From: Planctomycetota bacterium
GTDB taxonomy: Bacteria > Planctomycetota > Planctomycetia > Pirellulales > PNKZ01
Assembly: GCA_018242585.1 (NCBI GenBank)
Contig: JAFEBQ010000027.1
Coordinates: forward strand, 141,932 to 205,931
DNA: 64,000 nt
Reading direction: 5' to 3'
Part shown: piece by piece, positions 12,527-57,746 of the stretch
Position numbering within the stretch: position 1 is the first letter of the stretch
Layout of the letters: each line of letters begins with the position of its first letter
The notes under the pieces: generated by a model
The model's input: the letters and a program-made list of their open reading frames with translations, nothing else
The model's database searches: none
What the model was told of the DNA's origin: nothing
Program-made: the position numbers and the translations under genes

Positions 12527-12570
12527 GGTTCGCATGCTCAAACAAGAAGTTTGAGCATGGCACCCGAACC
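12527..12570. repeat. Nested hairpin, possibly a half copy of the composite element
   Basis: Perfect 11-bp stem CATGCTCAAAC/GTTTGAGCATG (12533-12543 and 12549-12559, loop AAGAA), framed by GGTTCG/CGAACC (12527-12532 and 12565-12570). The hairpin is followed by GGCACCC, comparable to GGCTACCC and GGCCACCC that end the ridA-flanking elements. It is 18-61 bases past the PSD1 stop and could also end its transcript. Confidence 0.6.
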
Positions 12571-12587: not shown

Positions 12588-15500
12588 CTACCCCTTGGTA
12601 ATCGTCTCGTCCAGATTCAGTAGCGCCGTAGCCACGGCGCGCCAGGCGGCCCATTCTTGGGCCGTCAGTTTTACCGGCGGCTTGGTGTCGTCACTGGCCG
12701 GTGTGCGCAACTGATCGTCGTACAACCGGCGCATGATCGCCGCTTCGGCCACGCTCGGCGCGCGGGCCACGCACAATCGAAAGGCAAAGACGAGCCGCGC
12801 GTCGACACCGGCGCTTGGCCGCTCGCGGATCACGCGGCGGGCCAGTGCCTCGGCCGCTTCGACATAGACCGGGTCGTTCAACAGCGTGAGCGCCTGGAGC
12901 GGCGTGTTGCTGCGCGACCGCTTGACGGTGCAGGCCAATCGGGCCGTGGCGTCGAAATTGACAAAGCTGGGGTACGGCGCGCCGCGCTTCCAGACGACGT
13001 AAACCCCGCGGCGGTACTTGGCCTCGCCGGGGCTGACGACGTACTCGATCTTTTCGCCGCCGATCTTGGTCCACAGCCCGTCAGGTTGAAACGGCCGCAC
13101 CGGCGGGCCGCCACCGGCCAGGCTCAACAAGCCCGAGATCGCCAGGGCGTTGTCCCGAATCGCCTCGGCGTCGAGCCGCACCCGTGGGCCGCGTGCCAGC
13201 AACCGGTTCTGATCATCGCGGGCCTGCAACTCGGGTGTCAGGTACGACTGCTGCTGGTAAGTGTCCGACGTGACGATCCTCCGCAGCACGTGCTTGGTCG
13301 ACCAGCCGTACTCCATGAACTCGACCGCCAGCCAGTCGAGCAACTCGCGATGAGACGGCGGTTCCCCCTTGATGCCGAAATCTTCGACCGTGCTGACCAG
13401 GCCGCGACCGAACAACTCGGCCCACCAGCGATTGACTGTCACTCGCGCGACCAAGGGATTGTCCCGATCGACCAGCCAGCGTGCCAGCGTGAGTCGGTTC
13501 TTTGGCCCCTCGGGCAGCCGGTGCAGCACGGCCGGCGCGGCGGGTTCGATCTTGTCCCCCGGCGCGCGGAAATCGCCGCGCGTGAACAGGTGGCTCTCGC
13601 GCGCTGGGCCGACTTCTTTCATCACCAGGGTCGTCGGCTGCGGCAGCAGCTTCACGCGGCGATCGACGTCGGCCCGCCGCTCGAGCAACTTGCGTCCGGC
13701 CGGCTCCTGGCTGACCAAGTAATCGACCAGCTTGTCGGTCTGGGGAGCGGTCCGCCTCTTAGCATCGACTTTCGCCAGCTTGGCGATGTCGGCTGGCATC
13801 TCGCCGCCACGCTTCGAGCCCGCCAGCGCCGCCAATCGCAAGCGACCAATCGTGCGGCCGTTGCCGAAATTTTGCACCATCGTGAACGTGAACCGCGTCC
13901 CGCCCGCGTTGCTCACGGGCTTGTCGAACGTGAACTCGGCCCAGTGAGGCTCGTGGAACTTGGGATTGATCGCCCACGCCGATCGCTCGTTGTCGTCGAT
14001 CGCTCCGGCCACGTCGTACTTGGTCTGCGAGAAATCAGCCTGGGCGTCGGCGAACTTCACTGGCTTGTCACCTTCGGGTTTGGCGTTCGTCGGGCCAGCT
14101 GTCGCCTTGAACGAGTTCAGCACGAAGTTCGGCCGCTCGGCGTCGCCGCGCCCGGGACCGTTGCCGGGTAGCGACGGATCGGTCAGCGCTTCGAGCCGGA
14201 TGGCCGTCACGTTCGGTAGATCGGTCGTCGCCACGACGGTGTAGGTGTCCTTGTCCGGCGCGTCGTCCACCAACAGCACCGAGCAATCGTCCAACACCTT
14301 GTGCGCCGCGCCGCCCGCCGAGTCGAAATCGTCGACGTGCATCACCTCTTCGGCGGGTTTGCTGCCGGCTTCGACCGCGAGGGCCGCCAGGCGCTCGTCA
14401 AGTTTCTCGCGCGCGGCTTGTTTCAGACCATCCAACTCTTTGTCGAGCGAGGCTAGCTCGCGGCGCAGCTCGGTTCGCTGGGTGTCGACCTTGGCGTCGG
14501 CCAGATTCATCCGCGGCCCCAGGAACCGAATCGAGCCGGGCACCTTGGGGTTGTTGCGGTCGGCCTCGATTTCGGTCTGGTTGAAGAACGCGAGCAAGCC
14601 GTAGTAGTCGCGCATGGTGAAGGGATCGTACTTGTGGTCGTGGCACTGGGCGCATTCGAGCGACGTCCCCAGCCAGACATAGCCGGTCGTATTCACGCGA
14701 TCGATCAGTTGATTGATTCGGGTCTCTTCCGGATCGCTGCCGGCTTCGACGTTGGTCGGCGCGTTGCGGTGAAAACCGGTGGCGATCCGCGAGGCGTCGT
14801 CGGCCCCGTCGATCAGGTCGCCCGCCACCTGATGAATGGTGAACTGATCGAACGGCATATCGGCGTTCAGCGCGCGAATCACCCAGTCGCGATAGGCCCA
14901 GATTTCGCGCAGGTCGTCCCGTTGAAACCCGTGCGAGTCGGCATAGCGGGCCAGATCGAGCCAGGGCCGGGCCCAACGCTCGCCGAACTGGGGTCGAGCG
15001 AGCAAATCGTCGACCAGCCGCGCGTAACGATCCGCGCGCGTGTCGTTCAAGTACTTTGCGACCTCGGCCGGCGACGGAGGTATGCCGATCAGGTCCAAGT
15101 AAACGCGCCGCACCAGGACGGCCGGTTCGGCCGCGGGGGACGGTGGCAGCTTCTCTTCGGCCAGCCGTGCGCGAACGAAGCGATCGATCGGGTGGGTGTT
15201 CTTGTTTGCGCGATTTGTGTCGGCAATGTCGAACGCCGGCGGCGCGGGGCGAACTGGCTTGACATAGGACCAGTGCTGTTGCTCGGCGACGTGATCGGGC
15301 CAGACGGCCCCTTCGGCGATCCAGCGCCGCAGCGTGGCAATCTCGCCGGCGTTCCATCGTTCGCCCCGGTTGGGCATTCGCTGCGGATCGTCGGCCGGTA
15401 GCGAGACGCGGGCCAGGATTTCGCTTTCGTCCGGCTTGCCCGCCACGAGGGTCGGGCCGCTGTCGCCGCCGCGTTGCAGGTCTTCGCGCCGATCGAGTCG

Positions 15501-15683
15501 CAGGCCGCCGAGTTGCTTCTCGGGGCCATGACACTCGAAGCACGATCGCTTGAGCAGCGGGAAAACCTGGGCCGAAAAGTCGAGCTTGTTGGGGGGCCTC
15601 TCAGCAGCGCCAACCGTGGCAGCGAATGCGCAGACAATGAGCGCGAGCAAGCAACCAAGCCAGCGGCTCAACGGGGCGAGCAT
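12588..15683 (-). CDS. PSCyt1-PSCyt2-PSD1 protein (DUF1549/DUF1553) with cytochrome c-type heme motif
   Basis: A 1031-aa exported protein. The start region MLAPLSRWLGCLLALIVCAF is a Sec signal peptide. A PSCyt1 (planctomycete cytochrome c) domain carries CFECH near 48-52. The PSCyt2 domain (DUF1549) runs about 163-371 and has the second motif CAQCHDHKYDP near 344. A beta-rich middle section (about 380-690) with NERSAWAINPKFHEPHWAEF resembles a discoidin-like binding module. The PSD1 domain (DUF1553) fills the C-terminal third: NPLVARVTVNRWWAELFGRGLV ... LRRIVTSDTYQQQS. The ATG at 15683 (or 15689) is chosen because upstream codons would place a non-signal extension. It pairs with the DUF1501 gene downstream. 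Family role unproven; exported redox or polymer-degradation function is inference. Confidence 0.9.
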   Translation of the reverse strand: MLAPLSRWLGCLLALIVCAFAATVGAAERPPNKLDFSAQVFPLLKRSCFECHGPEKQLGGLRLDRREDLQRGGDSGPTLVAGKPDESEILARVSLPADDPQRMPNRGERWNAGEIATLRRWIAEGAVWPDHVAEQQHWSYVKPVRPAPPAFDIADTNRANKNTHPIDRFVRARLAEEKLPPSPAAEPAVLVRRVYLDLIGIPPSPAEVAKYLNDTRADRYARLVDDLLARPQFGERWARPWLDLARYADSHGFQRDDLREIWAYRDWVIRALNADMPFDQFTIHQVAGDLIDGADDASRIATGFHRNAPTNVEAGSDPEETRINQLIDRVNTTGYVWLGTSLECAQCHDHKYDPFTMRDYYGLLAFFNQTEIEADRNNPKVPGSIRFLGPRMNLADAKVDTQRTELRRELASLDKELDGLKQAAREKLDERLAALAVEAGSKPAEEVMHVDDFDSAGGAAHKVLDDCSVLLVDDAPDKDTYTVVATTDLPNVTAIRLEALTDPSLPGNGPGRGDAERPNFVLNSFKATAGPTNAKPEGDKPVKFADAQADFSQTKYDVAGAIDDNERSAWAINPKFHEPHWAEFTFDKPVSNAGGTRFTFTMVQNFGNGRTIGRLRLAALAGSKRGGEMPADIAKLAKVDAKRRTAPQTDKLVDYLVSQEPAGRKLLERRADVDRRVKLLPQPTTLVMKEVGPARESHLFTRGDFRAPGDKIEPAAPAVLHRLPEGPKNRLTLARWLVDRDNPLVARVTVNRWWAELFGRGLVSTVEDFGIKGEPPSHRELLDWLAVEFMEYGWSTKHVLRRIVTSDTYQQQSYLTPELQARDDQNRLLARGPRVRLDAEAIRDNALAISGLLSLAGGGPPVRPFQPDGLWTKIGGEKIEYVVSPGEAKYRRGVYVVWKRGAPYPSFVNFDATARLACTVKRSRSNTPLQALTLLNDPVYVEAAEALARRVIRERPSAGVDARLVFAFRLCVARAPSVAEAAIMRRLYDDQLRTPASDDTKPPVKLTAQEWAAWRAVATALLNLDETITKG

Positions 15684-15935
15684 GCGCATGACCAGCAGGG
15701 GAAGGGGAGACGGCGCGGCAGGCAAAGACGGCAGACCATTCCATTGTGCCCCGGGGCGATGTGGCCGACAAGCAGTTTTGACCCGCGAACGAACGCACCG
15801 TCCTTCCCTAACTTGAATTACATCGCCTGAGTTCCAGGCGGCCGGAACAGTAGTCTCGCCTGTGTTGGTAGGCAACGTCGCAAGCTTCCCCCAGCCCCTT
15901 CATGGAAGGGAGGTGTGTTTCGTCTCTGCCGGCGC

Positions 15936-19892: not shown

Positions 19893-20105
19893 AACGAAGT
19901 TGCCGCGTAACGAACTTCTGCGATGGGTAAAAAAACCGTTGACGCTCTCCTCGGAAAGCATTAACGTATCAAGCTGTGTCGATGTATCGACTTGATCCGC
20001 GTCTGCTGCTGATCGGGTCGAAGCGTCTTCCCCCTCCCTCCAGCCGATTTGCCCGCCCGAAAACATTCCCGCCTTTCCCGTCCGCACGCCTGGGGAACCG
20101 TCGCC

Positions 20106-22481
20106 ATGTCGCAGCCTGCTGGCCGACATCTTGGCTATTGTCTGGTCGCCATTTTCCTGGCGTCGTTTTCGTCAACTGGCGGTGCGGCTGACGCGCTGGC
20201 ATTGCACGCCCAGGTCGATCAACTGCTCGAGTCGGCGGCCATCGGCCCTTTGCCACCCTTGGCCGACGACGCCGAGTTTGTACGGCGCGTTTACCTGGAC
20301 CTGGTGGGAGTGGTTCCCACCTCGGCCGAGGCTCGCGTGTTCCTCGATGACAAATCAGCCGACAAGCGTTCGCGACTGGTCGACCAACTGCTTGGCGACC
20401 CACGGTACACGCGGTGGTGGGCGACGGTGTTTGACGTCATGCTCATGGAGCGGCGTCCCGACAAAGTGGTCAAAGCGACCGACTTCCAGCGCTACCTTTA
20501 CCAGTCGATTCTCGACAACAAACCTTACAATCAGTTGGCTCGCGAGATCATCGGCGCCGATGTCGTGAAGGGCGCCAATCCACCTGCGTCGCGATTCTTG
20601 CTCGACCGTGATGTCGAGCCGAACTTGCTCACGCGCGACATCGGGCGTCTATTCTTCGGCATGGATTTGCAGTGCGCCCAGTGCCACGACCATCCGCTGG
20701 TCGACGATTACGCTCAGTCGGACTACTACGGCTTGTATGCGTTTGTGAATCGCTCCTTCTTGTTCACTGACAAAAAGGACAAGAAGGCCCCCAAGCTCAT
20801 GGCCGAGAAGGCCGACGGCGATGTGAGCTTTAAATCAGTGTTCACCGGCGACGAAGGGCAAGGAGTCAAGCCGCGATTGCCTAGGGACGTGGCCATTGTC
20901 GAGCCGGCGGTGGCCAAGGGGCAAGAGTATCTGGTTCCGCCCGAAAAGGACGCACGGCCGGTGCCGCGTTACAGCCGGCGACAGAAACTTGCCGAGTTGT
21001 TGGAATCTGGTGAGAACCTGGCCTTCAATCGCAACATCGTCAATCGTTTATGGGCCCAACTCATGGGGCGCGGCCTCGTCCACCCGGTCGACTTCCAGCA
21101 CTCGGACAATCCGCCGTCACAGCCCGAGCTGCTGGACCTGCTGGCGCGTGAGTTTCGAGCGCGCCGTTACGACATCAAATGGTTTCTGCGCGAGTTGGTT
21201 TTGACACGAGCATATCAACGCTCGTGTCAACTTCCAGCGCCGGCGGAGGTCAACGTCGACCAGGTTGCCGCCCGCCTGCACAAGTTCGAAGCCGAATTGC
21301 AACAGCGTCAAGCGGCCCGCGCCGCCGCCAGCGCCGAGGTGGAAAGGATCACGACAGCGATCGACCTCCTGAAGCCGGCCAAGACGCCGGCCGCCGAACT
21401 GGCCAAGTTGGAAGAGGCTGTGAAGCTCGCCATCGCGGCGCGTGACAAGGCTCGCAAAGAAGCCCAGGACGCGCAACAAGCCGCCACAACTCGCGACGAA
21501 GCCGCCCAGTTGCTGAACGCCGCTGTCGCCGCCAATCAAGCGGTGATCGACAAGTTGGCGTCGGATAAAATCGCCGTCGAGGCGGCCAGGAAGATCGTCG
21601 ACCGGGCCCAACGGACGCGCGCCGAGGCGACCCAAGCTCAGACCAAGGCAAGCGCATCGGCCAAGACCGCCGAGCAGGCGGCAGCCAAACTAAGCGCCGC
21701 CGAGCAGGCCTTGGCCAAAGTGAAAACTTCGAGTGGCGCGACCAGCGAATTGGAAAAACTGCAAGCCGAGTTACAGGCCGCCCAGAACCGGCTGGCCGCC
21801 ACAACCGTGGCTGCCAAAACGTGCGTCGCCCGCGAAAACGACGCCCAGGCGCTGCTCGCTTATCAGCAACTGGCCAAGAGCGACCGTGTCGCGGCCGAGC
21901 GCGCCTGGAACAGCCTGACCGAATCGTGGGCCAACCTGGGATATGTTGCCACGCTCAAGCCGCTGGCACCCGAGCAATTTGGGTTGAGCCTGATGCAGGC
22001 CACGGGCGCGCTGGCCGCTCAGGGCTCGGCGAGCGCCGCGGCGATCGAGAAGCAGCCTCCCGAAGAACTGAAGAAGGCGGAAGACCAGCAGAAGCAACCG
22101 CTCAAGGCCCGGCTGCTCGAGCAAAAGACGTACGAAGCCGTGCGCGGCAACTTGAACTCGATCATTACCCTTTATGGCGGCCAGCCGGGGCAGGATTTTG
22201 CCGCGACCTTGAACCAGGCGCTGTTCTTTGGCAATGGGCCGTTGGTTTCAGCGTGGCTGAAGCCGCAGGCCGGTTACCTGGTCGACCGATTAAACCAGCA
22301 GAAGGACGAGCGGCTGCTGGTCGAAGAATTGTATTTGAGCGTCTTTTCGCGACTGCCAAGCAGCGCCGAGACCGCTGACGTCGTCGCCTTTCTGGAAGCG
22401 CAACCGGACAAACGCGTGGCGGCGCTCCAGGAGATTACCTGGGCACTGTTGTCGAGCAACGAGTTCCGCTTCAATCACTAG
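20106..22481 (+). CDS. PSCyt2-PSD1 protein (DUF1549/DUF1553) with a long coiled-coil insertion
   Basis: A 791-aa exported protein with a Sec signal (LGYCLVAIFLASFSSTGGAA). It has no PSCyt1 domain. DUF1549 occupies about 30-240 with CAQCHDHPL near 190-198. DUF1553 begins around 300 (NLAFNRNIVNRLWAQLMGRGLV) and is interrupted after LTRAYQRSCQ at residue ~372 by some 240 residues of Ala/Gln/Lys/Glu-rich heptad-like coiled coil; the family sequence resumes at LKPLAPEQFG (~615) and ends SSNEFRFNH. Bases encoding the edge of the insertion form a perfect 10-bp inverted repeat (21201-21230). DUF1501 and WD40 genes follow, probably as one operon. Partners and substrate unknown. Confidence 0.88.
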   Translation: MSQPAGRHLGYCLVAIFLASFSSTGGAADALALHAQVDQLLESAAIGPLPPLADDAEFVRRVYLDLVGVVPTSAEARVFLDDKSADKRSRLVDQLLGDPRYTRWWATVFDVMLMERRPDKVVKATDFQRYLYQSILDNKPYNQLAREIIGADVVKGANPPASRFLLDRDVEPNLLTRDIGRLFFGMDLQCAQCHDHPLVDDYAQSDYYGLYAFVNRSFLFTDKKDKKAPKLMAEKADGDVSFKSVFTGDEGQGVKPRLPRDVAIVEPAVAKGQEYLVPPEKDARPVPRYSRRQKLAELLESGENLAFNRNIVNRLWAQLMGRGLVHPVDFQHSDNPPSQPELLDLLAREFRARRYDIKWFLRELVLTRAYQRSCQLPAPAEVNVDQVAARLHKFEAELQQRQAARAAASAEVERITTAIDLLKPAKTPAAELAKLEEAVKLAIAARDKARKEAQDAQQAATTRDEAAQLLNAAVAANQAVIDKLASDKIAVEAARKIVDRAQRTRAEATQAQTKASASAKTAEQAAAKLSAAEQALAKVKTSSGATSELEKLQAELQAAQNRLAATTVAAKTCVARENDAQALLAYQQLAKSDRVAAERAWNSLTESWANLGYVATLKPLAPEQFGLSLMQATGALAAQGSASAAAIEKQPPEELKKAEDQQKQPLKARLLEQKTYEAVRGNLNSIITLYGGQPGQDFAATLNQALFFGNGPLVSAWLKPQAGYLVDRLNQQKDERLLVEELYLSVFSRLPSSAETADVVAFLEAQPDKRVAALQEITWALLSSNEFRFNH
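21201..21230. repeat. Perfect inverted repeat inside the PSD1 gene
   Basis: TTGACACGAG and CTCGTGTCAA, 10-bp perfect arms with a 10-nt spacer, within codons for LTRAYQRSCQ. It coincides with the point where the DUF1553 domain is interrupted by the coiled-coil insertion. Confidence 0.7.
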
Positions 22482-22508: not shown

Positions 22509-23786
22509 ATGAAATGCCCGTACGCCTGCCGAACTATCGATCATGTGATGTCGCGGCGTTCGTTCCTGGGACAGGTCGGGGCGATCGGGGCGGGGCTCGG
22601 CGTGTCAAGCTTCGTCCAGCCGGCGGTCGCCAGCCAGCTCAAGACCAATCACAAGCGGATCTTGACGATCTTCTTGCACGGTGGCGTCAGCCAACTCGAA
22701 TCGTGGGATCCGAAACCGAATACCGATACCGGCGGTCCGTTCCGCGCCATTCCTACCAGCGTGCCGGGCGTACACATCAGCGAGTTGCTCCCCTACACCG
22801 CCAAGCAGATGCACCATCTGTCGCTGGTCCGCGGCATCAACACCAAGAACGGTGACCACGGCAAGGGGCAAGTCGAGATGCTCACCGGGCGCACGCGCAC
22901 CCCGGGGACCGACTACCCTCACTTGGGCGCGCTCGCGGCGAAGACCCTGGCGTCGGAATCGTTCCCGCTGCCGGGGCACATCCTCGTCAAAGGGGAGCGT
23001 GGCGGCGTGGCTGGGCCAGCGTACCTGGGGCCCAAGTTTGCAGCCGTCGAACTCGACGGCGCCAAGCCCCCCCAATACGCCGAGCGTGCCGCCGACTTGA
23101 CCGAAGCGACGGATGCCCGGCGCAACCGCTTCCGCCAGTTGGCAAACGACCATTTCGCGGCCAAGCGACGCAGCGCCGACACCGACGCCTACACCTTCTC
23201 GTACGAACAAGCCCAACAACTGCTCGCGCAACGCGACGTTTTCGAGTTGGCGAAAGAGCCGGCCAAGGAGCACGACAAGTACGGCAAGAGCGAATTCGGC
23301 CAACACCTGCTGCTGGCCCGGCGGCTGATCGAGAACGACATCCCCTTCGTGCAAGTCAATCACGCTGACTACGACTCCCACTACGAAAACTTCGACTTTC
23401 ACATCGAGCAGCTCGGAGAATTCGATCGCCCCTTCGCCACGCTGATCGCCGATTTGGCGGAGCGCGAGCTGTTAAAAGACACGCTCATCATCGTCATGAG
23501 CGAGTTCGGCCGCACGCCCAAGATCAACGCCGGCTATGGCCGCGACCATTGGGGAACGGCTTGGAGCGTGGCGCTGGCGGGTTGTGGTCTGCAACATGGC
23601 GCGGTCGTGGGCAAGACGAACGCCAACGGCACCGCCGTGGTCGATCGCGAGGTTGATCACGGTCACCTGTTGCACACCTATCTGCGCGCGGTCGGTGTCG
23701 ATAGCAAGAACGAGTTCACGATTGGCGGGCGCAAGCTGCCCATCGCCGATCCAGCCAAATCGGCCATTCAGGAGTTGCTGGCATGA
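22509..23786 (+). CDS. DUF1501 family exported protein
   Basis: A 425-aa DUF1501 protein. A twin-arginine motif SRRSFLGQVG near residue 15 is followed by a hydrophobic stretch (Tat export). Family motifs: FLHGGVSQLESWDPKP, VMSEFGRTPKIN and GRDHWGTAWS. GGAGAG lies about 8 bases before the ATG at 22509, which supports that start over the internal ATG nearer the RR motif. It starts 27 bases after the PSD1 stop and its own stop overlaps the WD40 gene start (ATGA), so the three are very likely translated from one message. Confidence 0.9.
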   Translation: MKCPYACRTIDHVMSRRSFLGQVGAIGAGLGVSSFVQPAVASQLKTNHKRILTIFLHGGVSQLESWDPKPNTDTGGPFRAIPTSVPGVHISELLPYTAKQMHHLSLVRGINTKNGDHGKGQVEMLTGRTRTPGTDYPHLGALAAKTLASESFPLPGHILVKGERGGVAGPAYLGPKFAAVELDGAKPPQYAERAADLTEATDARRNRFRQLANDHFAAKRRSADTDAYTFSYEQAQQLLAQRDVFELAKEPAKEHDKYGKSEFGQHLLLARRLIENDIPFVQVNHADYDSHYENFDFHIEQLGEFDRPFATLIADLAERELLKDTLIIVMSEFGRTPKINAGYGRDHWGTAWSVALAGCGLQHGAVVGKTNANGTAVVDREVDHGHLLHTYLRAVGVDSKNEFTIGGRKLPIADPAKSAIQELLA

Positions 23787-24919
23787 GCGCCGCCGACCAG
23801 GAAAAGCCAGCCAGCGCCGCGGCGCCAGAAAAGCAACCGGCGCCGAAGGACCAGTCCTCGCCCAAGGAACCGACGGCGTCACAGGCCGATCCGCGGCAAA
23901 CGCATCTGGCTGTCGAATGGAAATATGCGCGGCCGTTGACGGCCTGTCGGTTCGATCCGCTCGGGCGTTTTGTGCTCACCGGCGCCGAGGATAACAGCAT
24001 TCAGCGTTGGACTCTCACGGATCAGCCGCCGGCCAAGGGCCCCGATGGCAAGCCCGTCGAAGTGCAGCCGACCTTGTTCGAAGGGCACGATAGTTGGGTG
24101 CGGGCCATCGCCTTTTCGCCCGACGGGAAGTGGACCTACACGGGCGGCTATGACGGCCAGCTATTCACTTGGGAGACGGTGGGCGATAAGCCCGCGTTTA
24201 TTCGCAAGATCGCCGCCCACAACGGCTGGGTGCGCGCCATCGCCGTCAGCGCCGACGGCAAGCAACTGGCCAGTTGTGGCAACGACCAGTTGGTCAAGCT
24301 TTGGGACACCGCCGATGGCCGCCAGATTGCCATATTTAAGGGACACGAATCACACGTTTACAATCTGGCGTTTCATCCTGATGGCAAATCGCTCGTGTCG
24401 TGCGACTTGAAGGCTAATTTCAAACACTGGGAGCTGGCGACTGGCAAAGTCCTGCGCGATTTCAAAGCCGATGCGTTGTACAAGTACGACACCAAATTCC
24501 GCGCCGATATCGGCGGCGCGCGGTCGCTGGCGTTTAGCCTCGATGGCAAGCTGCTGGCCGCGGGGGGCATCACCAATGTCACCAACGCCTTTGCCGGAAT
24601 CGGCAGCCCGGCCGTGGCGGACATCGACTGGGAGTCGGGCAAGCTCAAGCTGCTGCACACCAGCAAGGAAGCCGGCAATGGCGTGATCTGGGGGGTGGCG
24701 CCACACATTGACGGCTATTGGATTGGCGTCTCTGGCTCGCGCAGCACCAGCGGTGGACTCTTCTTCTGGAAGCCCGATGCAGCCAATGAATTCTTCAAGT
24801 TCAAACTCGCCAGCGGCGTCGGGCGAGATCTGGCGTTGCATCCCGATGGTTTGCGCGTGGCCGTGGCGTGTGCCGATGGCTATATGCGTGTCTACAAAAT
24901 GCAAAGGCAGAAGACGTAG
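23783..24919 (+). CDS. WD40-repeat protein
   Basis: A 378-aa beta-propeller. After a polar, Pro/Lys-rich N-terminus of about 45 residues without a signal peptide, blades with the WD40 form follow: GHDSWVRAIAFSPDGKWTYT, AHNGWVRAIAVSADGKQLAS, KLWDTADGRQIAIF, GHESHVYNLAFHPDGKSLVS. About six blades can be counted, the last ones weaker. The ATG overlaps the DUF1501 stop by four bases. WD40 genes beside PSD1/DUF1501 pairs suggest a scaffold or cytoplasmic/periplasmic partner, but the lack of a signal peptide next to exported neighbours is unexplained. Confidence 0.88.
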   Translation: MSAADQEKPASAAAPEKQPAPKDQSSPKEPTASQADPRQTHLAVEWKYARPLTACRFDPLGRFVLTGAEDNSIQRWTLTDQPPAKGPDGKPVEVQPTLFEGHDSWVRAIAFSPDGKWTYTGGYDGQLFTWETVGDKPAFIRKIAAHNGWVRAIAVSADGKQLASCGNDQLVKLWDTADGRQIAIFKGHESHVYNLAFHPDGKSLVSCDLKANFKHWELATGKVLRDFKADALYKYDTKFRADIGGARSLAFSLDGKLLAAGGITNVTNAFAGIGSPAVADIDWESGKLKLLHTSKEAGNGVIWGVAPHIDGYWIGVSGSRSTSGGLFFWKPDAANEFFKFKLASGVGRDLALHPDGLRVAVACADGYMRVYKMQRQKT

Positions 24920-37677: not shown

Positions 37678-39927
37678 ATGTCTTTCCCGTCGACCTCGAC
37701 CAGTCGAACGACGCTCCCGATGTTCTTATGGGGAGCCCTATTGGCGCTTGGTGTCTGCCTGGGCTTGGCCCCGGGGGCTTCGGCTGCCGATCGGCCAGTC
37801 AGCTTTATCAATGAAGTCGTGCCGGTCCTGACCAAGGCGGGTTGCAACGCCGGGGTCTGCCATGCCAAGGCGATCAAGGGTCAGAACGGGTTCCAGTTGT
37901 CGCTGTTCGGCTACGAGCCGCGCGAAGATTACGATCACATCGCCCACGAAGGTCGCGGCCGGCGCATCTTCCTGCCGGCTCCCGACCGCAGCCTGCTGCT
38001 GTTGAAGGCTTCGGGTCAGTTGCCACACGGGGGTGGCGTGCGCCTGGACCGCAGTTCGGAAGGCTATGCCGTGTTGCGCGAGTGGATTCGCCAAGGGGCG
38101 TTGTTCGATCCACCGACGGGCCCCACCCTGTCCGCGCTTGAAATCGAACCGTCTCGCGCATCGATGGCGCGTAACTCGCAACAGCAGCTCAAATCGCTGG
38201 CCCGCTATTCGGACGGCAGCGTCCGCGACATTACGAGCATGGCCCTCTACGAAACCAGCGACCGCGCGTTGGCCGAAGTTTCGGGCCAGGGGCTGGTTCG
38301 CGTGCTGGATATTGCCGGCAACGCCTCGGTGATGGTGCGTTACCAGGGGCGCGTGGCCGTGCTGAGCGTGTCGATTCCACTGGGCTCTCCGGTCGATCAA
38401 TTGCCGGCGTCGCGCAACTTTATCGATGACCTGGTGTTCGCCAATCTCAAGAAGCTGGGCGTGCAGCCCTCGCCTGTTTGCGACGATGCCACGTTCGTGC
38501 GGCGTGTCACGTTGGACATTGCCGGTCGGATGCCCACCGAGGCCGAGACCACGGCGTTTCTGGCCGATGGCGATGCCGCGAAGCGCGACCGGCTGATCGA
38601 TCGACTGTTGGGCAGCGCGGACTACGCCGACTATTTCGCCGGCAAATGGGCGGCGCTGTTGAAGAACCGCCGCGAAAACGCCAGCGACCTGGTGGCGAAC
38701 TTTGCCTTTCATGCCTGGGTGCGCGACAGCCTGCTGGCCAACAAGCCCTACGATCAGTTCGTGCGCGAGCTATTGGCCGCCACGGGCACGATCGTCGGCA
38801 ATCCGCCGGTGGCCTGGTACAAGCGCGTCAAAGAACCCAAGCAGCAGATCGAAGACATCGCCCAGTTGTTCCTGGGCGTGCGGATGCAGTGTGCCCAGTG
38901 CCACCATCACCCGTTCGAGAAGTGGAGCCAGGACGACTATTACGCTCTGACCGCTTTCTTCAGCCAGGTCGGCCGCAAGCCTTCGCTGACGCGCGACGAA
39001 GATCTGATCTTCCACAAGCGCGGGCTCGCCACGGCGACCAACGTGAAGACCGGCCACCAGTTGAAGCCGGCCGCGCTCGGGGACAACATGCCGAGCATCG
39101 CTCCCGACGAAGACCCGCGGCTGCGGCTGGCCGATTGGATGAGTTCGCCTGACAACCCGTTCTTTGCCAAGTCGCTAGTCAACCGCTACTGGAAGCATTT
39201 CTTTCAGCGCGGGCTGATTGAACCCGAGGACGACATTCGCGACACCAACCCGCCCACCAATCCCGAACTGTTGGCGGCGCTGGAACAGCACTTCATCAAG
39301 AGCAAGTTCGACCTGAAGGCGTTGGTCCGCACCATCGTCCGGTCCAACGCCTATCAACTCAGCTCGCAGCCGAACGAATACAACCTGGGGGATCGGCAGA
39401 ACTATTCGCGGTTCTATCCCCGCCGGCTGCCGGCCGAAGTGATGCTCGACGCGATCGACCGGCTGGCGGGGGCGCAGACCGATTTCGCCAACTTGCCTGC
39501 CGGCACCCACGCCATTGCGCTGCCCGATAGCAGCTACAACCAATCGTCGCCGTTCCTCAAGGTGTTTGGTCGCCCCGCCGGGGAAAGCGTTTGCGAATGC
39601 GAACGTGTTCAATCGTCGAGCCTGGCGCAAAGCCTGCACCTGATTAACGCCGCCGATATCAAGGCCAAGCTCACGGCGGCGGCCGGCCGGGCGCAGCGGC
39701 TGGCCAAGGAAGACCGGCCGGCCGAGGCCAAGATTCGCGAGTTGTACCTGCTGGCGTTCTCGCGCGAGCCGCGGGCCGATGAGTTGAAGACCGCGACGGA
39801 CTACCTGGCCGAAGCGCGCACCGACGTCAACGGCAAGCCGATCGATCCGCAACAAGTGGCGCGCGAGAACTTCCAGGATCTGCTCTGGGCGCTGATTAAC
39901 ACCAAAGAGTTCCAGTTCAATCACTAA
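37678..39927 (+). CDS. PSCyt2-PSD1 protein with N-terminal cytochrome-like and Ig-like domains
   Basis: A 749-aa exported protein with a Sec signal (FLWGALLALGVCLGLAPGASA). The N-terminal domain has AGCNAGVCHAKA near residue 55, a CX4CH spacing instead of CxxCH, and otherwise follows the PSCyt1-like plan (FQLSLFGYEP, LPHGGGVRLDR). A bacterial Ig-like (Big) module follows (EIEPSRASMARNSQQQLKSLARYSDGS). DUF1549 follows with CAQCHHHPFE near 403, then DUF1553 from NPFFAKSLVNRYWKHFFQRGL to NTKEFQFNH. The next two genes start within 5 and 3 bases of each preceding stop, so this is a three-gene operon. Whether the CX4CH binds heme is open. Confidence 0.9.
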   Translation: MSFPSTSTSRTTLPMFLWGALLALGVCLGLAPGASAADRPVSFINEVVPVLTKAGCNAGVCHAKAIKGQNGFQLSLFGYEPREDYDHIAHEGRGRRIFLPAPDRSLLLLKASGQLPHGGGVRLDRSSEGYAVLREWIRQGALFDPPTGPTLSALEIEPSRASMARNSQQQLKSLARYSDGSVRDITSMALYETSDRALAEVSGQGLVRVLDIAGNASVMVRYQGRVAVLSVSIPLGSPVDQLPASRNFIDDLVFANLKKLGVQPSPVCDDATFVRRVTLDIAGRMPTEAETTAFLADGDAAKRDRLIDRLLGSADYADYFAGKWAALLKNRRENASDLVANFAFHAWVRDSLLANKPYDQFVRELLAATGTIVGNPPVAWYKRVKEPKQQIEDIAQLFLGVRMQCAQCHHHPFEKWSQDDYYALTAFFSQVGRKPSLTRDEDLIFHKRGLATATNVKTGHQLKPAALGDNMPSIAPDEDPRLRLADWMSSPDNPFFAKSLVNRYWKHFFQRGLIEPEDDIRDTNPPTNPELLAALEQHFIKSKFDLKALVRTIVRSNAYQLSSQPNEYNLGDRQNYSRFYPRRLPAEVMLDAIDRLAGAQTDFANLPAGTHAIALPDSSYNQSSPFLKVFGRPAGESVCECERVQSSSLAQSLHLINAADIKAKLTAAAGRAQRLAKEDRPAEAKIRELYLLAFSREPRADELKTATDYLAEARTDVNGKPIDPQQVARENFQDLLWALINTKEFQFNH

Positions 39928-39931
39928 ACCG

Positions 39932-42244
39932 ATGATGACCAGGCAAGATGCTATGGGACTGATGCCGCACTTCATTCGCACGCTCGGGCGCCGTCGTTCG
40001 CTGGCGCTGTTCGCCGTTGGCACGCTGTTGGCATGGAGCATGCCAACCGATCTGGTGTGGGCCCAGCCGGTGGGCCTGCCGGCGCCTCGCTTGCTGACCA
40101 CCATGCCCATGGGCGCTCAGGTCGGCGGCGAAATCGACGTGACGATCGCCGGTGACGATTTACAGCAAGCCGACGAGTTGGTGTTTTCCGATCCACGCCT
40201 GGTCGCTACGCACAAGCGAGACGCGGCCGGCAAGATTCTGCCGAATCAATACACGGTCAAGATCGCGGCTGATTGCCCCTTGGGGCTGCACGAGGCCCGC
40301 GTGATGACCCGCCTGGGCCTTTCGTCATCGCGGGCCTTCTCGGTCGGCGCGCTGTCCGAGGTCGCGCGGACCAAGGCGAACACGTCGGCGGAAACCGCGA
40401 TGGAACTGAAGGTCAATTCCATTTGCAACGCCTCGACCAGCCCGCGCAATATCGATTACTACTCGTTCGAGGGGCGCAAGGGACAGCGGATTGTCGTCGA
40501 CTGTGGCGCGAAGGGAATCGATTCCAAGTTATCGGCCGTGCTGATCGTGGCCGACGCGACAGGAAACGATCTGGCCGTCGAGCGGCGAGGCGGCGCGCTT
40601 GACTTCACGCTGCCGCAGGACGGCAAGTACCTGATCAAAGTTCACGAGTTGACCTACCAAGGTGGCCCGGCCTATTTCTATCGCCTGGCGCTGCAGGAGT
40701 TGGCCCCCGGCGCCCCCATCGTGCGTTTGCCGGCGACGCGAACCGTGAACTCCTTTTCGTGGCCACCCACTGGTCTTGCCGAGCAAGCGGCCGCCCAGGA
40801 AGTCGAACCGAACAACGTCACCCAGGCGCAAAAGATCACGCTTCCTTGCGACATCTCGGGCAGCTTTTTCCCGGCCGCCGATGTGGATGTGTTCGAGTTC
40901 GACGCCAAGAAAGGGGACGTCTGGTGGGTCGAGGTTGCTTCCGAGCGGTTCGGGCTGCCGACCGATCCCGCCGCGCTGGTGCAACATGTCGGCACGGCCG
41001 ATGGCGCCGAGAAGCTGACCGATGTGGCCGAGCTGAGCGACATTCCCAGCCCGGTCAAGATTTCGAGCAACGGCTATGCGTACGATGGTCCTCCTTACAA
41101 CGCCGGCTCGGCCGACGTGCTGGGCAAAGTAGTCATCCAGCAAGATGGCCGTCATCGGCTGTCGTTGTCCGATTTGTTCGGCGGCACGCGAAACGATCCG
41201 CGCAATGTTTATCGGTTGGTGATTCGCAAGGCAGCGCCCGACTTCGCCTTGGTCGCCTGGCCGCTGCACATGGAGCTGCGCAATGGCGACCGCAACGCGC
41301 TTTCCAAGCCGATTGCCCTGCGTGGCGGCGCGACGATGGCGCTCGAAGTCGTGGTCGTGCGGCGCGATGGCTTCGACGGAGAAATCGAACTTGCCATGGA
41401 CCGCTTGCCCTCGGGCGTTCGTGCCACGGGGCTAAAGATTCCGGCCGGCAAGTCGCGCGGCATCATGTTGGTGACCGCCGACGAGCACGCCTCGCACGGG
41501 TATGCCAGCGCCAACTTCCTTGGTCGCGCCAAGATCGACGGCGTCGAAGTCGCGCGGCCGTGTCGGCTGGCGACGATGGCCTGGCCCGTGCCCGATGCCT
41601 GGGGCGAACTCCCTTACCCGCGGCTGATGGCCGATGTGCCCGTTTCGACCAGCGGCGAAGAGTTGGCGCCGGTAACCTTGGCCGCGGCCAAGCGCGAAGC
41701 GTTCGAGGCGCCGGCTGGCACGAAGCTGACGATTCCGCTCACCGAAGTTCGCCGCGGCGAGCTGAATGCCAACGCGATTTCGATGCGTGTCTTTGGCGCT
41801 GGTTTTGAACAGTCAGCGGCGGTGAGCGTGTCGCTCGCCGCCGACAAGACCGAAGTGGTGTTCGATCTGGCCGCGCTCAAGACGCCGCCGGGCGATTATC
41901 TGATCGCCTTGTACGGCGGCACGGTCGCCAAGTATCGTCCCTGGTCCGAGGCCGCGGTCAAGGCCGAAGCCCAACAGCGCGACGCCCAGGCCCAGGTCGC
42001 CGCGCTCGACAGCGAGGCGAAAAAACTCGACGCCGCGGCCAAAGCTGCCCCGCCCGAAAAGAAGGTGCAAGCCGACGAGGCGTGCAAGCAAATGGCCACC
42101 AAGCAAAAGACGGCCATGGCGGCGCTGAACACGGCGGCCGAACAAGCCAAGAAAGCGGCGGCAGCCTCCGAGCCGAAGGGGATCGCCGATATCGTCGTCT
42201 CGGAACCGATCATGATTCGCGTCTTGTCGGCGGAGAAAAAATAG
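39932..42244 (+). CDS. Exported PPC-domain (pre-peptidase C-terminal) protein
   Basis: A 770-aa protein with a signal peptide (RRRSLALFAVGTLLAWSMPTD), possibly Sec, a start among several ATGs near 39932. An IPT/Ig-like domain opens the mature part (MPMGAQVGGEIDVTIAGDDLQQADEL). Two PPC modules follow, seen in PRNIDYYSFEGRKGQRIVVD and FFPAADVDVFEFDAKKGDVWWVEV, each a beta-sandwich of about 80-100 residues. Near the C-terminus (about 660-740) lies an Ala/Lys/Gln-rich coiled coil. No catalytic site is seen; binding or scaffolding for its PSD1 and DUF1501 partners is inference. Confidence 0.85.
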   Translation: MMTRQDAMGLMPHFIRTLGRRRSLALFAVGTLLAWSMPTDLVWAQPVGLPAPRLLTTMPMGAQVGGEIDVTIAGDDLQQADELVFSDPRLVATHKRDAAGKILPNQYTVKIAADCPLGLHEARVMTRLGLSSSRAFSVGALSEVARTKANTSAETAMELKVNSICNASTSPRNIDYYSFEGRKGQRIVVDCGAKGIDSKLSAVLIVADATGNDLAVERRGGALDFTLPQDGKYLIKVHELTYQGGPAYFYRLALQELAPGAPIVRLPATRTVNSFSWPPTGLAEQAAAQEVEPNNVTQAQKITLPCDISGSFFPAADVDVFEFDAKKGDVWWVEVASERFGLPTDPAALVQHVGTADGAEKLTDVAELSDIPSPVKISSNGYAYDGPPYNAGSADVLGKVVIQQDGRHRLSLSDLFGGTRNDPRNVYRLVIRKAAPDFALVAWPLHMELRNGDRNALSKPIALRGGATMALEVVVVRRDGFDGEIELAMDRLPSGVRATGLKIPAGKSRGIMLVTADEHASHGYASANFLGRAKIDGVEVARPCRLATMAWPVPDAWGELPYPRLMADVPVSTSGEELAPVTLAAAKREAFEAPAGTKLTIPLTEVRRGELNANAISMRVFGAGFEQSAAVSVSLAADKTEVVFDLAALKTPPGDYLIALYGGTVAKYRPWSEAAVKAEAQQRDAQAQVAALDSEAKKLDAAAKAAPPEKKVQADEACKQMATKQKTAMAALNTAAEQAKKAAAASEPKGIADIVVSEPIMIRVLSAEKK

Positions 42245-57718: not shown

Positions 57719-57746
57719 GCCCGCTCCCACGCCGATGGGAGCGGGC
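57719..57746 (+). terminator. Strong hairpin downstream of the glutathione peroxidase gene
   Basis: Perfect 11-bp stem GCCCGCTCCCA/TGGGAGCGGGC with a 6-nt loop, 54 bases after the stop. No long T-run follows directly; TGTTTGATT is 22 bases later. Likely ends the gene's transcript. Confidence 0.55.

Follow-up and report, generated by a model that had tools for sequence, protein, structure and literature searches.

How a long coiled coil came to split the PSD1 domain of a planctomycete protein, and what such a coil might do there, are the questions raised by a gene at positions 20106-22481 of the window, the 64,000-nucleotide stretch of Planctomycetota bacterium DNA that was analyzed. A preliminary description of the window had proposed that the coil may be an oligomerization rod and that an inverted repeat at its left edge may mark how it entered. 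The open reading frame, its translation and its Pfam matches define a protein of 791 residues encoded on the forward strand, as are the parts of this gene and the two genes that follow it, with an ATG start codon at 20106 and a TTG upstream at 20049 in the window open reading frame. The protein matched PF07583 (PSCyt2, DUF1549; E = 1.6e-37) and PF07587 (PSD1, DUF1553; E = 2.2e-29) with 129.9 and 103 bits, respectively, against gathering scores of 29.8 and 28.5. These were its only Pfam matches, with no ATPase and no NlpC/P60-type hydrolase domain detected; a search of NCBIfam returned no match in this protein (P0001) and weak coil matches below cut-off in a relative, L117. The PSCyt2 domain (residues 37-216; 20214-20753) contains the sequence CAQCH (20673-20687), no position of which varies across the 31 rows of alignment A1. 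We take this CxxCH sequence to be a haem-c attachment motif, and haem binding is putative. An N-terminal hydrophobic stretch, judged by eye, suggests that the protein is exported.

Alignment to relatives confirmed that the PSD1 domain is divided. Its N-terminal part (20976-21230) runs from the Pfam start at residue 291 to the sequence LTRAYQRSCQ (residues 366-375) and is followed by a coiled-coil insertion of 241 residues (376-616; 21231-21953) and then by a C-terminal module (617-791; 21954-22478) that opens with LKPLAPEQFG (617-626). The preliminary description had placed the split between these same two sequences, and a definite insertion point inside PSD1 was established from coil-less relatives, in which 16-19 residues occupy the junction where both anchors align; junction values down to -24 in coil-less rows represent partial C-module matches. 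The counterparts AYQLSS and TYQQQS, to which the left anchor had been likened, are also present in the PSD1 genes of the window at 37678-39927 and 12588-15875. Beside the former gene, the gene at 39932-42244 encodes an Ala/Lys-rich, coiled-coil-like stretch near the C terminus of its product. The Pfam PSD1 match itself covers residues 291-513 and extends to position 225 of the 244-position profile only by way of the coil. Because the match is stretched into the coil, the PSD1 boundary taken from Pfam is wrong in the window protein, and the same warning applies to the coil-bearing branch. In a coil-less Gemmata protein (L122:3938-5494), the C-terminal half scored slightly over the cut-off for PSD2 (DUF1585) and under it for DUF1800, a hint that these families and the C-terminal module in this branch may be related.

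A coil was found in 80 of 128 rows, the window included, and 48 rows had none. The rows are proteins with both modules; those with no C-module match, with an N-module score below 160 bits or with an identical N module (4 rows) were excluded, and the sample leans toward close relatives, since the best 80 of 578 were kept in one search. The number of junction residues was at most 16-19 in the 48 coil-less rows, 105-109 in 3, 182 in 1, 207-234 in 3, 241-248 in 13, 254-266 in 10, 289-290 in 4, 319 in 2 and 398-424 in 44. Across 393 genomes surveyed in the phylum, 60 gave a match at E <= 1e-90; among the 76 matches listed, 36 lie in open reading frames shorter than 660 residues and 40 in frames of at least 690, length serving here as a proxy for the coil. 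The coils of different classes are homologous: the 13 of 241-248 residues, the window coil among them, gave a profile score of 138.6 against the 406-residue coils, compared with at most 32.6 in 30 heptad-block shuffles.

In a quick tree of the 128 rows, coil-bearing proteins span the base of a clade of 115 rows (support 99), and the state without a coil accounts for three changes. A careful tree of 65 rows, built without near-duplicates and without six named rows (one partial, five on branches that were long or doubtful), grouped the window protein with L032, L038 and L039 of its family (100/99), the coils of which are 243, 182 and 105 residues long, respectively. Five changes of coil presence were counted on this tree (bootstrap 4-5), and repeated loss or transfer must therefore be assumed; a single gain of the coil without loss was rejected, as one-change trees made up 0% of 200 bootstraps. 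The placement of the window protein differs between the trees, near the base in the 128-row tree versus inside the 400 class (95/85) in the 65-row tree, so that its single hairpin may be either primitive or reduced, and the tree backbone is weakly supported in places. A foreign composition of the coil was also rejected, its GC3 of 0.768 being in line with those of the flanks (0.740 and 0.789). Because the coils are homologous across most classes, a single origin with later losses is the most economical interpretation, though transfer may also have contributed. The recent insertion implied by the preliminary description is contradicted by a coil that its wide occurrence and both trees mark as ancestral in the clade. 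The 182-residue coil of L038 (genome G004) has a proline-rich middle, unlike the 105-109-residue coils of relatives in the same genus.

The inverted repeat was reported to have perfect 10-bp arms within 21201-21230. Its position at the left edge and its perfection were verified, but the arms measure 11 bp (21201-21211 and 21220-21230, with an 8-nucleotide loop), and the repeat lies within the codons of LTRAYQRSCQ. A perfect repeat that ends exactly at the left junction, and that as RNA would form a stable hairpin (-20.3 kcal/mol, z -6.5), might be taken for the scar or end of a recent mobile insertion. The distribution of the repeat argues against this. Among 137 distinct 60-nucleotide junction segments (N-module score of at least 160 bits, with or without coil), 11-bp arms were observed in the window alone; in the other 136, coil-less copies included, arms did not exceed 7 bp (reached in 2 segments), and L032 of genome G001, which is the nearest relative, has a 3-bp arm despite its own long coil. 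Repeat and insert thus do not occur together as in a mobile insertion with a terminal inverted repeat, every other coil-bearing relative examined being without the repeat. Even when up to 3 mismatches were allowed, the repeat sequence occurred only once in the 5.57-Mb genome, which speaks against mobile insertion and also disposes of the repeat as a dispersed element.

The frequency of such repeats is at the level of chance. Three inverted repeats of at least 11 bp (loop 3-15) were counted in the 64-kb window, compared with 0-3 in 12 first-order Markov draws, and one in its coding part (51,996 bases), compared with 0.4 on average over 25 synonymous resamplings. An 11-bp repeat at this one site was obtained in 6 of 20,000 resamplings, a figure to be read in light of the site having been picked post hoc. 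With a coil that is widespread, homologous between classes and similar to its flanks in GC3, and a repeat wholly inside conserved-motif codons, a recent mobile insertion has next to no probability; the ancestral coil and the repeat-free sister rule it out. The repeat is most probably coincidental rather than a mark of entry. Of the genomes examined, it was seen in this one only, which also makes a role as an RNA regulator unlikely despite the stable hairpin. Two more perfect 11-bp inverted repeats, at 12533-12559 and 57719-57746 with loops of 5 and 6 nucleotides, are intergenic and terminator-like.

The AlphaFold2 model of the window protein (m6efa709fc854; pLDDT 89.2, pTM 0.83) predicts coil helices at 355-396, 400-454, 459-512, 515-563 and 565-581 in model numbering, to which 29 is added to give protein numbering. 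The arm is read as one antiparallel hairpin whose tip falls at model residues 455-458 and whose two sides are broken opposite each other at 397-399 and 513-514, a topology derived from DSSP breaks and aligned ranges rather than from coordinates. The predicted outgoing arm (21255-21554) comprises helices at protein residues 384-425 and 429-483, separated by a break at 426-428, and the predicted returning arm (21567-21935) comprises helices at 488-541 and 544-610, with a non-helical residue at 593. Between them lies the predicted tip (21555-21566; coil residues 109-112), the LASD of LASDK, which matches the motif LPxDxxL at 110-116 of the 406-residue class. Each arm would contain ~100 residues and extend ~15 nm if straight (1.5 Å per helical residue), with the breaks ~57 residues from the tip. 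In VIA-align, the colicin E3 receptor-binding hairpin matched model residues 396-514 with Z 12.7 and rmsd 1.9 over 115 aligned residues, and an Smc arm matched residues 349-566 with Z 10.4 and rmsd 7.5 over 217, although helical hairpins align to many unrelated chains at Z 10-14. As to a solved relative of the protein body, Foldseek gave no match at E <= 0.001, and the structural alignments barely covered the body.

The prediction is of an antiparallel hairpin instead of a parallel rod. Oligomerization, as the preliminary description had proposed, through pairing of the coil with other chains, in either orientation, would accommodate the Ala/Gln/Lys-rich heptads, with their hydrophobic period of 3.44, as well as the appearance of the two-chain coils myosin and tropomyosin among the top PDB sequence matches; of 252 such matches, the 60 listed all include the coil region. 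Those matches are explained by composition, however, and the models suggest intramolecular hairpins that turn at a conserved tip and would not need a second chain; moreover, the two ends of the insertion lie at one point of the domain. Although a hairpin could still dimerize, an oligomerization rod is considered quite improbable.

A model was also available for L117 from Lacipirellula limnantheis, which belongs to the 406-residue class (pLDDT 87.6, pTM 0.76). The predicted helices at 349-453, 458-555, 557-643, 648-666 and 669-744 are consistent with two tandem hairpins in a coil of 406 residues, and the single-residue break at 556 fits a second hairpin lying alongside the first or pointing opposite. 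With VIA-align, the RipA N domain matched residues 558-742 with Z 14.3 and rmsd 2.6 over 185 aligned residues, and JetABC matched residues 352-555 with Z 12.1 and rmsd 12.7 over 199. When the two halves of the 31 coils of 406 residues were compared by hhalign, a score of 106.7 was obtained over 182 ungapped columns at an offset of 190; the score was 89.7 with the tips masked and did not exceed 32.5 in 40 heptad-block shuffles. Identity autocorrelation likewise peaked at an offset of 190 (0.19; next highest value 0.142). Computation thus shows, at the level of sequence, an internal tandem duplication of 190 residues in these coils.

The motif LPxDxxL is found at both tips (110-116 and 300-306), with D113 and D303 each conserved at 90% (weighted), and no other nine-residue stretches in the 406-residue coil are as well conserved as the two tips. 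A point against the hairpin reading is that turn scores in the top 5% fell in the tip window in only 52 of 76 coils, compared with 26% for random windows. Pairwise alignment to the 406 class placed the main gap at ~232-397 or 283-400 in L063, L078, L034, L032, L045, L040, L061 and L050, and by MAFFT the window coil (L031) aligned raggedly, as did L104, L112 and L052. The shorter coil classes thus mostly appear to be without much of the second hairpin.

Length is nearly fixed in the long class. Exactly 406 residues were counted in 31 of the 44 coils of 398-424 residues, whereas in the same 44 rows the commonest length was shared by 24 C modules and 14 N modules; median identity among the 31 rows was 21% for the coil versus 50% for the N and C modules. 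Were the coil a flexible or neutral spacer, with any helical filler tolerated and the length classes reflecting common descent only, its low identity, the several length classes and the many coil-less relatives with the same operon would all be accommodated. An equal length kept at such low identity, when the better conserved N module varies more, and tips that are the best conserved part are less easily reconciled with neutrality, which is accordingly regarded as unlikely. Length is not fixed across the whole family, and coils of 241-255 residues occur in L063, L078, L034 and L104, within or beside the 406 class, contrary to what a strict ruler would lead one to expect.

The gene neighborhood is very constant. 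A DUF1501 gene (22509-23786) is next in the predicted operon and is the immediate downstream neighbor in all 71 relatives examined, and a WD40 gene (23783-24919) follows, no more than 3.5 kb away in 57 of 65; the loci counted were those from L061 to L140 that have both modules, reach 280 bits or more for the N module and include sufficient flanking sequence. Spacing and strand suggest a PSD1-DUF1501-WD40 operon. A twin-arginine-like SRRSFLG sequence, again assessed by eye, suggests export of the DUF1501 protein. The WD40 protein has no obvious signal peptide by eye, and its PSD1 and DUF1501 neighbors look exported. Constant gene order and a conserved tip motif could both be explained by a clamp, in which the arm or its tip specifically binds the neighboring DUF1501 or WD40 protein. 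The same partners, however, stand beside coil-less genes (DUF1501 in 15 of 15, WD40 in 13 of 14), the length of the WD40 open reading frame has no clear trend with coil class and the tip motif may be a mere helix-turn cap, so that a partner clamp carries a low probability. Because coil-less relatives keep the cluster, the arm is an optional part of it and would not be needed for basic activity.

The explanation favored as a whole, and considered probable, is an ancestral, duplicable antiparallel hairpin arm that works in the cell envelope as a spacer or docking device. It builds on computed properties of the family (near-fixed length, coil homology, duplication, conserved tips, operon context and the irrelevance of the repeat) and on a hairpin fold that is predicted only. 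The hairpin would project from a surface loop of PSD1, at the site of the 16-19-residue linker of coil-less relatives, and a single hairpin would have been duplicated in tandem in most long relatives. For this anatomy and history confidence is high. The rigid arm could keep the cytochrome-like body spaced at a fixed interval from some partner or layer, a role suggested by insertion ends that share one point of the domain and by a length kept while sequence drifts; this functional part is put forward tentatively, at somewhat less than even odds. A bolder extension, in which the hairpin is a molecular ruler of the planctomycete envelope and none, short, one or two arms match the spacing of layer or partner, is quite improbable; if it were true, two opposed arms would reach ~30 nm and the PSD1-DUF1501-WD40 system would span to that layer or partner. 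Arm length and tip in any case offer an experimental handle on an operon-linked branch of a many-copy family without known function.

The window protein belongs by both of its domains, each above the Pfam cut-off, to the PSCyt2-PSD1 proteins of planctomycetes and verrucomicrobia. Published accounts give 41 copies per domain for Rhodopirellula baltica (PMC2754498), and the function of these proteins is described as unknown (PMC5615132), while 46 matched stretches were found in genome G000. A word search of both papers gave no occurrence of "coiled", and among the results listed by literature searches no paper mentioned a PSD1 hairpin arm or coiled coil. Compared with the ordinary arrangement, the PSD1 domain of the window protein is interrupted, a variant common to all 80 coil-bearing rows.

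Long helical hairpins on exported proteins are also known from the peptidoglycan hydrolases RipA (N domain), Cg1735 and PcsB and from the adaptors HlyD and EmrA. The RipA-type hairpin aligned at Z 9.9 with the window model, compared with 14.3 for the second hairpin of L117, values in the range of common helical arrangements; the window protein differs from RipA-type peptidoglycan hydrolases in its body, which has no NlpC/P60 or similar domain. No sequence relation beyond coil composition links it to the hairpins of SMC, dynein or colicin, and by Pfam it is without the split ABC-type ATPase head of SMC and Rad50, so that the resemblance to these would be one of working only. As in the SMC arm, the dynein stalk and the colicin receptor-binding domain, two long helices are predicted to run out and back from one globular point.
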